Shown here piece by piece: positions 10,494-21,113 of a stretch of DNA of 23,646 bases. The notes under the pieces were generated by a model. The model ran no database searches and was not told the DNA's origin. It was given only the letters and a program-made list of their open reading frames with translations. This DNA is from a virus: positions 1 to 23,646 of the IMG/VR virus record IMGVR_UViG_3300046467_001607. One strand, 5' to 3'. The number at the start of each line of letters is the position of its first letter. Positions within the stretch are counted from its first letter, which is position 1. A program made the position numbers and the translations under genes.

Positions 10494-10700
10494 TTATCTC
10501 TTTATTTTGTTCAGTTGTCTGTTTTCTTGTTCTATTCGTTCATTTTCTTGCTCAATCCATTCTAACAATAATGTGACATAAATTTCTCTTTCCCATGGAA
10601 TCATTTCTTCAAGCTCAGTCAAGCTGTAATTATGATGTTTCATCATTGCAAAGGTGGTTCTGTAATAATTAACTAGCGTTTCATGACTGAGCCCTATCCA
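10494..10700 (-). CDS. gp51-like frame, probably made as a -1 frameshift extension of gp26
   Basis: The frame is open for 68 codons from the slippery heptamer to TAA 10494-10496, and ends seven bases before the tape measure ATG. Read after a -1 slip it begins WIGLSHETLVNYYRTTF and continues KHHNYSLTELEEMIPWER and EIYVTLLLEWIEQENERIEQ, a small helical protein like the gp51-type assembly proteins of T4-like phages. The only in-frame ATGs (10646 and 10643) have no ribosome site and would waste the upstream open part. Expression as a gp26 fusion (242 + 68 = 310 residues) explains both facts. If it is instead made alone, the product is 50 residues from 10646. Confidence 0.65.
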   Translation of the reverse strand, partial: WIGLSHETLVNYYRTTFAMMKHHNYSLTELEEMIPWEREIYVTLLLEWIEQENERIEQENRQLNKIKR

Positions 10701-11425
10701 AAAAAATTCTGCATTCCTTCGATTTCTACTTTATTTTTTCCTTCACATTTATTACAAACAAGGGTTGTTTCATATTTCACTTTTGGCATAGTATCAAAGA
10801 ATTTCTTAATTTCCAAAAATTGGCTTTGTGTTAAATCTTCTAAAAATTTCTTTGTTTCTTCTTTATCTGTGTCCTTCATTTTGTATACAGCATTTTCGTC
10901 GTAAATGGATTCCATGCAGGCTATTACTAAATTCAATACTTCATCGACATCATTGTCGTCTATTTCTTTTATCTCTCCTTCCATTATATCTTCAAGTTCG
11001 GGATATTTCATTATGATGCCAATTTTGTCTGTTATGCCAACCTGTTTTGTGTGGTCTGGATTTTTTGTAACCTTTATTTTATCTACATCAACCGTGAAGT
11101 CAATTGCATTTTCACAATTCTTTTTTCCTTTTTTGCTTTGGCAGGAATAAGTTAGAGTCAATGATTCGCCAATTGATTTTGCTCTTAATTGCAAGAAAAA
11201 ATATTCAAGGTCAAAGGGCGCGAGTTCGTCAACATTAATATCATCCATGCAACAGTTGTTAATGATTTGCCTTAGGGCATTGGCCATTTCTTTTCGGTCT
11301 TTGCCTTCAAGGGCCATTAACAAAACTTTTTCTTCTTTTACTAAAAACGGTCGATATTTAACCTTTTTGTTTGTTGAAGGAATTGTCATTTCAAAAGTAG
11401 GTACGTCAATCTTAGGTAGTGCCAT
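10694..11425 (-). CDS. 26: gp26-like baseplate hub assembly protein
   Basis: The product has 243 residues. It opens MALPKIDVPTFEMTIPSTNKKVKYRPFLVKEEKVLLMALE, the signature of the T4 gp26 baseplate family, followed by an INVDELAPFDLEYFFLQLRA segment and acidic helical regions. Near the end VCNKC suggests half of a zinc site, with SCQS and NCEN earlier as possible partners. GGAGAT precedes ATG 11425. gp26 acts in hub assembly around the tape measure. The last codons, AAT TTT TTT GGA TAG, contain a T_TTT_TTT slippery sequence, making this the likely zero-frame product of a tail-chaperone frameshift pair. Confidence 0.85.
   Translation of the reverse strand: MALPKIDVPTFEMTIPSTNKKVKYRPFLVKEEKVLLMALEGKDRKEMANALRQIINNCCMDDINVDELAPFDLEYFFLQLRAKSIGESLTLTYSCQSKKGKKNCENAIDFTVDVDKIKVTKNPDHTKQVGITDKIGIIMKYPELEDIMEGEIKEIDDNDVDEVLNLVIACMESIYDENAVYKMKDTDKEETKKFLEDLTQSQFLEIKKFFDTMPKVKYETTLVCNKCEGKNKVEIEGMQNFFG
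10700..10719 (-). promoter_or_regulatory. candidate -1 programmed ribosomal frameshift site
   Basis: On the minus strand T_TTT_TTT (10706 down to 10700) is in the correct phase (AAT TTT TTT GGA TAG) two codons before the zero-frame stop. AAGGA (10719-10715) lies eight bases upstream and could act as a stimulating internal ribosome-binding sequence, as in dnaX. No clear downstream pseudoknot was found. Confidence 0.65.
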
Positions 11426-11451: not shown

Positions 11452-12141
11452 TTAAATTAAGTTACCAAGAAATTGCCCTGTTTTTTTCACGCCGCTCATT
11501 ATTTGCCCATCAGCTTTGTTCAGTACAGCAACTCCAAAATCGTCTAACGCCCCCCCAATATCAAAGTTTGGATATAATGAATTAATTGCTAAATTATTTC
11601 CAAATGGAAGCATTGGTAGGTCTTGTTGGTGCCATTTACGATATGCAAATGTTACTTGTAGGTTGTGGAATGCGTTGGTGGCTTGCCAGTCTAGGGCAAG
11701 AGGGGCTACTATCATAGGATATGCGTCTATAAATTTACATGCATAAATTACCTTTCCTTGGGGGTCATATTGTTCTATATCAATATCTGATACATATGTG
11801 TCAAAATAGTTTACTTTTCCTGTAAGAGGATTGATAATTTGATTTTGCCAGTCGCGAAATAAATCTAGGGGGAACATGCCATTATTAGTGCAAAGGGTGC
11901 TTATTTGTAGGTCATCATACATTGTATTATACGGAGCCTTACGGATTGGTCCGTGTGTTCTGATTTCGTTAGTGACGAAAGACCTTCCCGGAAGAACTGC
12001 CTGATTGATAAGAAAGGCCAAGGCCTTTGCTTTGCTGTTTTTTAGAACACCCCCAGTAATGAGCATACGGAATTTATTAGGTTCGGCTAGTCCGCCTTGC
12101 TTGTTCATTTCTCCCTTAAATCCGTTTATATTAAATGCCAT
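11452..12141 (-). CDS. 54: gp54/gp19-family tail tube protein, probably the baseplate tube initiator gp54
   Basis: The product has 229 residues. The features of the tube fold are visible: AEPNKFRMLI near the start, LINQAVLPGRSFVTNEIRTHGP, a DLQISTLCTNNGMFPLDLFRDWQNQIINPLTG segment and the closing beta hairpin LQVTFAYRKW. The DWQN..NPLTG piece and the VTFAYR ending resemble T4 gp54 more than the tail tube gp19, and baseplate genes surround it. gp54 caps the baseplate and starts tube polymerisation. Its ATG follows the gp2 stop directly. An exact gp54 versus gp19 assignment needs a profile search. Confidence 0.7.
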   Translation of the reverse strand: MAFNINGFKGEMNKQGGLAEPNKFRMLITGGVLKNSKAKALAFLINQAVLPGRSFVTNEIRTHGPIRKAPYNTMYDDLQISTLCTNNGMFPLDLFRDWQNQIINPLTGKVNYFDTYVSDIDIEQYDPQGKVIYACKFIDAYPMIVAPLALDWQATNAFHNLQVTFAYRKWHQQDLPMLPFGNNLAINSLYPNFDIGGALDDFGVAVLNKADGQIMSGVKKTGQFLGNLI

Positions 12142-17160: not shown

Positions 17161-18030
17161 ATGTTATTGACACCAAAAGAATATGATAGTTCAAAAATGT
17201 TTGATAATGAGCAGCAACTCTTAGAAAAGTTGATTATGTACAACCAAGGAAAGAGATACGGGCAGATTGTGTTTGTAGTTGGTGGTGCAGGCAGCGGTAA
17301 AGGGTTTGCTATTTCAAATTTTATGGAGAATGAAAAGTTCAAGATTCGAGATGTTGATGAATGGAAAAAGGCCTTTATCGCATTAGATAGACTTGGTCGC
17401 GTCCGGACGGGCGCAGGTGGTTTGAATCTTAGGAAATCCGAAGATGTAGGAAAAATGCATTCGATTATAAAAGATTTAGGAATCAAAGATAAGACTTTAA
17501 TGAATCTTTTAATGAATGCAAAAAACAGGGCTACATTGCCGAATATCCTTTTTGATATTACGGGAAAGGATGTGTCTGATATTTCTAATATTTTGCCTGA
17601 ATTAGAGGCTGTTGGTTATCAGCCAAAAAATATTCATTTGGCATGGGTCTTGACAAAATATTCAGTTGCAATTGAAAGAAATTTAGACCGAGAGAGAATT
17701 GTTCCTGCTGATATTATGCTGACGACACATGTTGGCGCAGCAACAACCATGAGCCACATCCTCAAGGGTAAAATTCCTAGAGGTGTTAATGGCGGAGTTC
17801 ATGTTATTTTAAACAATAAAGAAAATACCGTTCCTTTTGTTAGTAATGGAAAACCAATTAAAAACCCAACGACTGGAGGTATCATAGTCAAAGATTTTAC
17901 TTATGTTACACTCAAAAGAGAAGGTAAACGATTTTTTAAAGAGAAAGAAATTCAGAAGCAACTTTATCGTTGGATTTCGTCTAATGTTCCAGACGAAGCT
18001 CTAAAGATAATACCGGAGCCTGAACTATAA
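17161..18030 (+). CDS. P-loop kinase-like protein in the baseplate operon
   Basis: The product has 289 residues from ATG 17161, six bases after AAGGT. Walker A is GGAGSGKG (41-48) preceded by strand QIVFVV. A basic/acidic DVDEWKK follows at 64-70, and PNILFDITGKD at 127-137 fits a Walker B strand. Later segments (HLAWVLTKYSVAIERNLDRERIVP) resemble the arginine-bearing lid of zeta-toxin or AAA_33 kinases. No motif points to a particular substrate. It sits between gp27 and the gp5 OB protein. Similar kinase genes are not part of the T4 hub, so a direct structural role is doubtful. It ends exactly where the next gene begins (TAATG overlap). Confidence 0.7.
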   Translation: MLLTPKEYDSSKMFDNEQQLLEKLIMYNQGKRYGQIVFVVGGAGSGKGFAISNFMENEKFKIRDVDEWKKAFIALDRLGRVRTGAGGLNLRKSEDVGKMHSIIKDLGIKDKTLMNLLMNAKNRATLPNILFDITGKDVSDISNILPELEAVGYQPKNIHLAWVLTKYSVAIERNLDRERIVPADIMLTTHVGAATTMSHILKGKIPRGVNGGVHVILNNKENTVPFVSNGKPIKNPTTGGIIVKDFTYVTLKREGKRFFKEKEIQKQLYRWISSNVPDEALKIIPEPEL

Positions 18031-18332
18031 TGAAATCTGGAATGGGAAGAAGTGGGTTTATTTGGTTTGAAGGTGTTGTCGAAGACCGAATGGATCCTCT
18101 CGGGATTGGAAGAATGCGTGTTCGGGTCTATGGTTTTGATAATGAATCCAGGGCTGAGGTTCCAACTGAGCATCTTCCTTGGGCTTATCCTATGCTTCCT
18201 TTGAATAGTTCGCAGGGAGAAGTTCACTCTCCAAAAGAAGGAACCTGGGTTTTTGGATTTTTTCGAGACGGTGAAGATGCACAAGACAGAGTTATTCTAG
18301 GGACTATTAATACAGGGGCATATAATGGCTGA
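18030..18332 (+). CDS. gp5 N-terminal OB-fold domain as a separate protein
   Basis: The product has 100 residues. FIWFEGVVEDRMDPLGIGRMRVRVYGF, then VPTEHLPWAYPMLPL and KEGTWVFGFFRDGEDAQDRVILGTI match the N-terminal OB domain of T4 gp5 (FVGVVEDRMDPLKLGRVRVRV; EKLPWMSV). In T4 this domain is joined to lysozyme and beta-helix parts in one 575-residue chain and binds gp27. Here it ends in a proper stop after the OB fold. The stop overlaps the next gene by eight bases. The beta-helix part appears at 19767. It most likely links hub and spike. Confidence 0.88.
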   Translation: MKSGMGRSGFIWFEGVVEDRMDPLGIGRMRVRVYGFDNESRAEVPTEHLPWAYPMLPLNSSQGEVHSPKEGTWVFGFFRDGEDAQDRVILGTINTGAYNG

Positions 18333-19770
18333 GGCAGAACAAACTGTTGAACAAGCGTTAAATGACCTTTCTGCGGGCGCTACTGAACTTGCTGTGGATG
18401 TGGTTAAAGGCTTAGGTGATGTGGCCGATGCAGCAGGAAACGCACTCGCGGCTGTTACTACTGGTGTGGGTTTGTTTCCAGAACAAAATGCAGTTGATCC
18501 TTCGGCCGTGGTTGCTGCAATGCCCAGTGAACCGGTGTGCCCAAGTCTTCCTGGAATTATATTTCCTGAGTTGCCTGACCTTGAACAGTTGGGAGAAATC
18601 GCAGACGACGCTCTTGAAAAGGTAGGTGATTTGGTCGAGAGATTAAAAAATCCTCCTTCGGCTGGTGACACGACGAAAGAGTTTGCAAGCGGGGTTAGTA
18701 GTGCGGCTGACAAAGCAGCAAAGGCTCTTGGGAAAGTTGCTCTTGATTTAGAAAACCAAATAAAAGACCAGGCGGCGGCCGCATGGGATTCTGCGGTTGG
18801 GCAATTTAATGATTTAGAGGCTGCGTTGGAAGCTGTCAGGTCTGGGGCCATTGACCTTTCTTCATTGGGTGTTGATATTTTAAGTTTGCCGGCAGATGCT
18901 CTTGCAGGAGCTTTTGCTGGATTCAAGAATGCAGCCGAATGTCTAACGGGAGTAGCCGGAGGCGCAGAAGAGGCATTTAACAAGAAGTCGGCAGTGTTAT
19001 CAGAAGGCTTGTCTAAGGGGAGGGGATTAAGTGCAACAGCAGCCGACGAGGCAATAACACAACAATCTGAAGAAACCACAGATGAAAATGGAAACACGAT
19101 TAAAAAACAAAAAACAATTTCCCGAGACGATGCAGCCAAGAGTGTAGCGGGAACTACTAAAAATGCTGTACCGCAAAGCGACAGTCCTCTTGTGACAGAA
19201 AAGGTTATAGTAAAAGAGTCTGATAAGGTCAATAAAATAGGGATAGTTGGTCTGGCTTTACAATTCTATACGAAAAGTGGCCGTAAAATTACGCCAGAAG
19301 AAGAGGCTCGGGCTTTCTCCGGACTTCCTCCTAAATTTTCTCGGCCCCCGTTGCTTTTATCGTCGAAGAGCCTCAAGTCATTTGCAATACCGCCTGCTGA
19401 GGAGGGTGATAGTCTTGATGTTTTACAGGCAAAATTTGATGCGTTCTGGAACGACTTTCAAGGCCCCGATTTTTCAGAAGTTGGAACACCTACCCAGCGG
19501 CGCCAAGAAAAGCTAAGATTGAGTCTTGTTAAAAACTATGAAGATAGAGGTGATCCTGTTCCAGCAAAGTTTTTAACTCCGATTAAGATGACTAAAGTTG
19601 ATATACCCCATTCTTCTTGGTATAAACTGGTTAGTTGGCACGCTGCTTCATATAATTTAGCTAATCCTCCAGGTGAAATTGATAATTCTCAAGTAGGGGG
19701 TAGTGGGTCTAAACCGTTGATTGGCTCTACTGGAAAGTATTATTATTGGTTCAACGGAGAGATTAAATGA
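18325..19770 (+). CDS. alanine-rich protein of unknown function in the gp5 locus
   Basis: The product has 481 residues. The first about 230 are Ala-rich amphipathic helices (VEQALNDLSAGATELAVDVV, AADKAAKALGKVALD and similar). A Thr/Gln/Lys-rich linker follows (about 245-290), then a less repetitive C-terminal part with FWNDFQGPDFSEVGTPTQRR and a closing YYYWFNGEIK. I see no lysozyme active-site pattern, though the gene occupies the position of that domain between the gp5 OB part and the beta-helix. It overlaps both neighbours (8 and 4 bases), so the three are coupled. It may act as a spike chaperone, adaptor or ejected protein. This is inference from context. Confidence 0.6.
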   Translation: MAEAEQTVEQALNDLSAGATELAVDVVKGLGDVADAAGNALAAVTTGVGLFPEQNAVDPSAVVAAMPSEPVCPSLPGIIFPELPDLEQLGEIADDALEKVGDLVERLKNPPSAGDTTKEFASGVSSAADKAAKALGKVALDLENQIKDQAAAAWDSAVGQFNDLEAALEAVRSGAIDLSSLGVDILSLPADALAGAFAGFKNAAECLTGVAGGAEEAFNKKSAVLSEGLSKGRGLSATAADEAITQQSEETTDENGNTIKKQKTISRDDAAKSVAGTTKNAVPQSDSPLVTEKVIVKESDKVNKIGIVGLALQFYTKSGRKITPEEEARAFSGLPPKFSRPPLLLSSKSLKSFAIPPAEEGDSLDVLQAKFDAFWNDFQGPDFSEVGTPTQRRQEKLRLSLVKNYEDRGDPVPAKFLTPIKMTKVDIPHSSWYKLVSWHAASYNLANPPGEIDNSQVGGSGSKPLIGSTGKYYYWFNGEIK

Positions 19771-21113
19771 GAATCCTTACTAAATTATATACATTGTCTT
19801 ATCAACTTCTGATGCCACACACTCGTTTGCCTAGTGTTTTTATGAAGAAAAATGATGATGATATAGACATAGAGCCTGTCGAATTTGTGGGTTCTGATTA
19901 TAGAATCGAAGGAGCTCCAGGATTTACAGATGACCGAGTAAGAAATGATGATGACTATGTTTCCTATGCTCCAAGAAAAGTTGTTCCAGATTTGATGGGC
20001 GGAGGAAACTTAGTTTCAGAAGATTATCCACAAAATGTTGCCCGGGCGCTTGACTTTGAAACAACAGAAGCAAATACTCCAAGACAGGCCCGCGGCGAGA
20101 AATTAGATACATTAACAGAAATTCATGATTCGCAAAGAATTTTTGATGTTGCTGTTGCAACATTTGATGATACTTTAGATACTGCTCCTCCTGAAGGAGA
20201 ACCAGCTGCGTGGGATGGTAAGGCTAATCCAACAACAAAACAACCAGAGAATCCTTTTAATGCCAGGTACCCGTATAATCATGTTCGTGAAACAGAGAGC
20301 GGGCATTTGTTTGAAGCAGATGATACACCAGGAGCAGAGAGAATAAAAGAATCACATCGGGCAGGAACATATTATGAAGTATTTCCTGACGGAAGTAAGG
20401 TTGAAAAAATCGTTCGAGATAATTTTACTGTCATTGTCGGGCATGATAAGGTGAACATTCAGGGTAGCGCAATTGTCACAATCGAAGGGGACTGCAATTT
20501 TTATACCAAAGGAAATTTTACTCAACAAGTAGATGGTGATTATAACCTATTGGTCAAAGGAAAGCACACAGTTCAGGTTGCAGATGATGTGACGCTTGAT
20601 TGTCATTCTGACTATTATCATTATGTCGGAAATCAAATTGATCCTGCAAAGGGCATTGTTGGAAGAGGAAACAAGGGAGGCGAGGCTAAAACTGAGGTTG
20701 CGGGAGATTACCAGTTACATGTCTCAGGTGTGGCTTCTGAGATTTATGGTGACAAAGATTTATACGATAAGAATAAGACAACGACAAAGCATCAAACTCT
20801 GCTTTTTGGGGACGAAAAAAATCAAATCATTGGAGGATTTAAGTTCGACCAGATTGACAACAACCGCACAGAGATTGTTGGAAAAAATTATACAACTCAG
20901 ATTGTCGGTAATAAAAGCCAGGTTATTGAGGGTTTGTATACTTCTACAAGTGCGGCAGAGACTTCTATAAGCGATTCGATTACTTTCACGTCGGCTGCGA
21001 TTAATCTTATGTCGGGTTCTACTACTTTACTGGTAGATTCTGATTCTGTTGACCTTGTTGCAACTGCTTCGGTTACTGTTAATGCGCCTGATATTGACCT
21101 CAATGAATCATGA
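19767..21113 (+). CDS. gp5 C-terminal beta-helix spike as a separate protein
   Basis: The product has 448 residues. After a variable N-terminal part (about 155 residues), the T4 gp5C match begins: NARYPYNHVRETESGHLFEADDTPGAERIKESHRAGTYYEVFPDGSKVEKIVRDN (T4: YPYVHTMETESGHIQEFDDTPGQERYRLVHPTGTYEEV). Then come repeated short strands of the VxGxx type (IVGHDKVNIQGSAIVTIEGDCN, VDGDYNLLVKGKHTVQVADD) that form the trimeric beta-helix needle. The ending is hydrophobic beta-rich. The needle pierces the outer membrane. The start overlaps the previous stop as ATGA. The lysozyme domain normally fused before it is absent. Confidence 0.85.
   Translation: MRILTKLYTLSYQLLMPHTRLPSVFMKKNDDDIDIEPVEFVGSDYRIEGAPGFTDDRVRNDDDYVSYAPRKVVPDLMGGGNLVSEDYPQNVARALDFETTEANTPRQARGEKLDTLTEIHDSQRIFDVAVATFDDTLDTAPPEGEPAAWDGKANPTTKQPENPFNARYPYNHVRETESGHLFEADDTPGAERIKESHRAGTYYEVFPDGSKVEKIVRDNFTVIVGHDKVNIQGSAIVTIEGDCNFYTKGNFTQQVDGDYNLLVKGKHTVQVADDVTLDCHSDYYHYVGNQIDPAKGIVGRGNKGGEAKTEVAGDYQLHVSGVASEIYGDKDLYDKNKTTTKHQTLLFGDEKNQIIGGFKFDQIDNNRTEIVGKNYTTQIVGNKSQVIEGLYTSTSAAETSISDSITFTSAAINLMSGSTTLLVDSDSVDLVATASVTVNAPDIDLNES

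Follow-up and report, generated by a model that had tools for sequence, protein, structure and literature searches.

The window, by which we mean the whole stretch of 23,646 nucleotides analysed, is a 23.6 kb contig of an uncultivated virus whose neighbouring genes are T4-like and encode head closure, DNA end protector, gp54-like tube, tube cap, baseplate wedge subunit and gp5-like hub proteins. On the minus strand a gene for a tube-family protein is followed by gp26/gp51 and then by a large ORF without a family match (Table 1). Two further arrangements were observed on the plus strand. At 18030-21113 the gp5-like hub/lysozyme family (phrog_430) is split over two ORFs (N-part 18030-18332, C-part 19767-21113), and an ORF without family match (18325-19770) sits between them with gene overlaps of 8 and 4 nt. 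At 1977-2462 the first bases of a tRNA-Lys(ttt) gene (2387-2462) lie within an HNH endonuclease ORF (1977-2396).

Table 1. Features of the gp26/gp51 locus in the window.
Feature	Position	Strand	Basis
gp19-fold tail-tube family protein (gp54-like tube initiator), upstream neighbour	11452..12141	-	PF06841 E 7.9e-5 (below curated cut-off); phrog_45 tail tube E 1.2e-31
gp26 homologue, short tail assembly chaperone (TAC-N; function likely), 243 aa	10694..11425	-	PF12322 T4_baseplate E 2.8e-62; phrog_150 baseplate hub E 6.8e-69
AAGGA, Shine-Dalgarno-like element ending 8 nt 5' of the heptamer; possible stimulator	10715..10719	-	sequence
Slippery heptamer T_TTT_TTT, in phase with gp26	10700..10706	-	sequence; T_TTT_TTY conserved in relatives
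gp26 0-frame stop TAG, bypassed by the predicted shift	10694..10696	-	sequence
-1 frame extension, gp51 homologue, predicted C-terminal part of the long chaperone (TAC-NC); junction ...QNFF|WIGLSHETL...	10494..10706	-	phrog_634 baseplate hub assembly catalyst E 3.7e-26
5' arm of predicted stimulatory stem, GGGCTCAGTCA, beginning 5 nt past the heptamer	10684..10694	-	strand fold, clade conservation, synonymous recoding
3' arm of predicted stimulatory stem, TGACTGAGCTT	10611..10621	-	strand fold, clade conservation, synonymous recoding
Stop TAA of the -1 frame	10494-10496	-	sequence
Large downstream ORF, probable tape measure protein, 591 aa	8712..10487	-	position and composition only

The 3' end of gp26 reads GAA GGA ATG CAG AAT TTT TTT GGA TAG. 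Direct reading confirmed what the first-pass annotation had reported here: the in-phase T_TTT_TTT near the stop, AAGGA eight bases 5' of it, and a -1 frame open for 68 codons to 10494 with a 310-residue product. Counted from the first slip Phe the -1 frame has 70 codons, 68 of them after the two Phe, and the predicted fusion is made up of 242 + 68 residues; upstream of the heptamer the frame is open for 8 codons only. The claim that it has no well-initiated start also held, the first start codon being the ATG at 10646 with none before it. The distance from the end of the -1 frame to the ATG of the next large ORF (10487) had to be corrected from seven bases to 6. This ORF gave no family match in the Pfam and PHROG searches and no clear similarity to the HTVC008M tape measure.

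The proposed identities of gp26 and gp51 were borne out by the PF12322, phrog_150 and phrog_634 matches. The phrog_634 (gp51) match of the -1 frame, which reached E 1.2e-28 in the whole-record search, was accompanied by a weak phrog_150 match at positions 237-276 of 282. In T4 gp51 (249 aa) the phrog_150 match spans residues 3-248 (E 2.6e-84) and a phrog_634 match is found as well (E 1.2e-23), while the PHROG profile search with T4 gp26 gave no phrog_634 match. Since T4 gp51 matches the gp26 family over its whole length and also matches gp51, it corresponds to the long form, gp26-gp51, in a single frame, and since only one of the two T4 proteins has the gp51 match, T4 has one gene for the short form and another for the long form. 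T4 g26 and g51 are divergently oriented on opposite strands, therefore T4 itself cannot make the long form by such a shift. The earlier suggestion that gp26 and gp51 are the tail chaperone pair is supported by the T4 gp51 fusion and, with the tape measure named by position, by gene order, but T4 gp51 is the whole long form and not the extension alone.

The AlphaFold2 model of the window gp26 has a pLDDT of 86. Its most probable PDB matches were the HK97 gp13 chaperone entry 2OB9 and the entry 3FGX, both non-significant (E 1.8 and 4.5), and the best match was weak (E 1.8, probability 0.51, TM 0.54 by target); 3FGX is also termed a chaperone elsewhere (PMC9603447). Among predicted viral proteins the structure search with this model matched T4-like gp26 and also gp51 proteins, and PDB sequence searches with gp26 and gp51 gave no matches. 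Because the fold matches fall below significance, we infer a tail assembly chaperone function of the window gp26 and gp26-gp51 as likely; the role is supported by gene order and by T4 gp51 as a natural gp26-gp51 fusion, and weakly by the fold.

In a first scan all 80 IMG/VR relatives had NNT TTT TTY in phase and ahead of the gp26 stop, at a distance of 1 to 8 codons. Together with phage records and additional scans the full set came to 196 loci, comprising 174 with T_TTT_TTY, 20 from Ackermannviridae and one from Vibrio K445 with N_NTT_TTC, and one Menderavirus (L175) with a one-base deletion at the run. The conservation that the first-pass annotation had asked for was therefore found: outside the Ackermannviridae/K445 group the in-phase T_TTT_TTY is present at the gp26 end in 174/175 T4-like relatives, and it is likewise seen in S-PM2, HTVC008M, S-CRM01, ACP17, Moby, phiAS5, OLIVR6 and CZ01. 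GC-rich Acidovorax and Stenotrophomonas phages keep it too; the per-gene chance of NNT TTT in GC-rich phages is 0.013 (ACP17), 0.115 (Moby) and 0.12 (OLIVR6). Given the residues and each gene's own codon usage, NNT TTT would occur by chance in every one of the 52 representatives, taken from 80% clusters, with a probability of about 1e-23, a value which treats the representatives as independent and ignores shared ancestry. In a more cautious sample of nine T6 groups, obtained by clustering at 40%, the chance was about 1e-6 over the eight scored. AGG of the AAGGA stretch is present in 48/52 representatives, where selection on AAGGA is not separable because a conserved Gly codon (GGN) forces part of it.

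The Ackermannviridae loci (L090, L091, L180-L197) and Vibrio K445 (L089) lack the T6 run and have A_ATT_TTC, G_ATT_TTC, G_GTT_TTC or A_CTT_TTC at the same place, with a gp51-like -1 frame; G_GTT_TTC is also the site of T7 gene 10. K445 has an ATG overlapping the gp26 stop as well. L175, which is nearly identical to Moby, has five T's and not six, so that gp26 is put into the +1 frame and the arrangement is broken; this is possibly a homopolymer sequencing error.

In order to judge the -1 frame ahead of possible starts, the 18 codons after the slip were considered, i.e. the stretch before the usual first ATG, which is mostly without a start codon. Over this stretch the relatives have 0/882 stops in the -1 frame with pN/pS 0.42, compared with 113/882 stops and pN/pS 1.12 in frame 0 and 99/882 stops and pN/pS 1.50 in the +1 frame. 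Across relatives the first start codon of the -1 frame often lies 10-34 codons inside it, and early starts are absent or without ribosome sites in most. The ribosome sites of the -1 frame starts are weak (mean 0.06 kcal/mol vs -4.4 for gp26).

These values bear on the possibility that gp51 is an independent gene whose translation begins at an ATG inside the frame (at 10646 or further on) or with ribosomes that re-initiate past the gp26 stop, the T-run being coincidental. Database records do annotate gp51 in this way: in 15 gp26 neighbourhoods of phage records it has its own, often late, start or is omitted, and none of the 15 is marked as joined. In S-CRM01, Moby and CZ01 an ATG overlaps or adjoins the gp26 stop, as is also the case in K445, and in the S-PM2 group an ATG lies 5 codons in; re-initiation could occur at the ATGs of S-CRM01, Moby, CZ01 and the S-PM2 group. 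However, the residues ahead of the first ATG show conservation and purifying selection, in many relatives, the window among them, this stretch holds no start and ribosome sites are weak, and the heptamer is invariant, with T even in the synonymous positions of GC-rich phages. In a tblastn search with the -1 frame, which matched 547 phage records, most among the matches listed aligned from residue 1, the junction. An independent start of gp51 was rejected on the pre-ATG selection, the weak or missing starts and the invariant heptamer, and we leave it only a slim chance. These data suggest that most of the starts given for gp51 in the examined records are wrong.

In the 52 representatives folding is stronger than in shuffled sequences only just 3' of the heptamer: windows starting at +0 to +6 have mean z values between -2.0 and -2.3, and z is near 0 elsewhere in the scanned windows. 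Folding is also stronger than in sequences whose -1 frame was recoded synonymously (mean z -1.9; p < 0.05 in 56%). An RNA stem is predicted 3' of the heptamer in most relatives, and these stems occupy several registers. In one register covariation was seen as G-C/C-G and C-G/G-C swaps at pairs 7-31 and 11-27, counts which lean towards pairing because those groups were picked by pairing. The short local hairpin of other clades is absent in the window, HTVC008M, phiAS5 and the L013/L021 groups, and 45-nt folding of the window gave no local hairpin. Longer folding gave an 11-bp long-range stem with 62 nt between its arms (Table 1). It is kept at 10-11 bp in 5/5 clade members, which are not independent, the four nearest relatives keeping 10 pairs. 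None of 1000 synonymous recodings of the window matched the 11-bp stem, by a metric picked after the stem had been seen.

The stems are also relevant to RNA polymerase slippage on the T-run. The window has seven T's, and since one base added there leads to the same fusion, mRNAs with one extra U would yield it by normal translation. Against this, the run in most relatives consists of just six T's and then a C, which is short for a polymerase to slip on; its phase is in every case the one that tandem tRNA slippage requires, and RNA stems follow it. Transcriptional slippage was rejected for these reasons, with a chance slimmer still than that of an independent start. A sequencing or assembly error that split one continuous gene, for which the homopolymer site and the one-base change of L175 might speak, has negligible probability and was rejected, as it is refuted by the same two-frame arrangement shared by more than 170 sequences, finished phage genomes included.

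Thus we hold with high confidence that gp26 is the short and gp26-gp51 the long tail assembly chaperone, both made from one mRNA by a -1 frameshift of the lambda G/GT type. As at such loci, the second ORF lies in the -1 frame without initiation of its own and an in-phase slippery site lies near the end of the first. At the level of sequence, the conservation of the heptamer, the selection on the -1 frame ahead of its starts and the RNA stems lend strong support to the frameshift and to the gp26/gp51 identities; that slippage occurs at the window heptamer, and its rate, we infer. Most ribosomes would read gp26 and terminate at the TAG at 10694. A minority would be paused by the downstream base-paired stem, and perhaps also by the upstream AAGGA, would slip back one base on U_UUU_UUU with tRNA-Phe in both the P and A sites, and would read on through gp51 to give the 310-residue fusion. 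If the two parts act as in lambda gpG/gpGT, coating of the tape measure protein encoded by the next gene would fall to the gp26 part and recruitment of tube or hub proteins to the gp51 part.

Lambda gpG/gpGT resembles the present case in having a -1 frameshift shortly before the first chaperone gene ends and just ahead of the tape measure gene (PMC5009743). Unlike the window phage, lambda is a siphovirus, and no sequence similarity is claimed. Its slippery sequence, G_GGA_AAG, differs from T_TTT_TTT. In systems of the lambda type the short form greatly outnumbers the fusion, and neither occurs in the virion. E/E' of P2, a contractile-tail phage, is similar in having a -1 shift on a T-run (T_TTT_TTG) before the tape measure; the P2 chaperone is much smaller. 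The TAC locus of Vandenendeviridae/Andersonviridae (phage Adele, PMC12846349) likewise has a conserved -1 shift at a T-rich site (GTTTTT) and a second ORF formerly mis-annotated as a separate gene, as with gp51; the phage families and the slippery sequence are different.

The first-pass annotation did not know the T4-like pair to be described; it has been. According to the papers citing it, the study of Vladimirov, Gautam & Davidson 2022 (Virology 566:9-15) identified the tail assembly chaperone genes of T4-like phages, which share with the window the short and long chaperone forms. The passage of the PRFect paper (PMC10885494) drawing on it states that in some T4-like phages the short gene and the fused long gene are separate, and in the 2025 Adele paper (PMC12846349) it is the source given for poly-T slippery sites in the TAC-N genes of T4-like phages. 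A 2016 review describes T4 as the exception to G-T frameshifting (PMC5009743). The profile matches of T4 gp26 and gp51 agree with genes 26 and 51 being the T4-like chaperone genes; in T4 the two forms are separate, divergently oriented genes, whereas in the window the long form would arise by frameshift. Since those genes were identified by Vladimirov et al. 2022, a study cited for poly-T signals, the principle of the T4-like chaperone frameshift is, as far as these citations go, already known and not a new mechanism. What may be new are the predicted stimulatory stems, the part most likely unreported, and the mis-started annotations of gp51.

On balance we lean, if only slightly, to the view that gp26/gp51 frameshifting is ancestral in T4-like phages. 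It would have been kept by a fixed U_UUU_UUY and fast-turnover RNA stems (in several non-homologous registers, with a long-range stem inside the gp51 coding region in the window clade) and lost in T4 on duplication into separate short and long genes, the Ackermannviridae having switched to T7-like N_NTT_TTC sites. The frameshift would account genetically for the long chaperone form in numerous phages of environmental importance, the 547 records with a gp51-like frame, and the slippery sites and stems of the relatives offer a graded natural set for frameshift studies.
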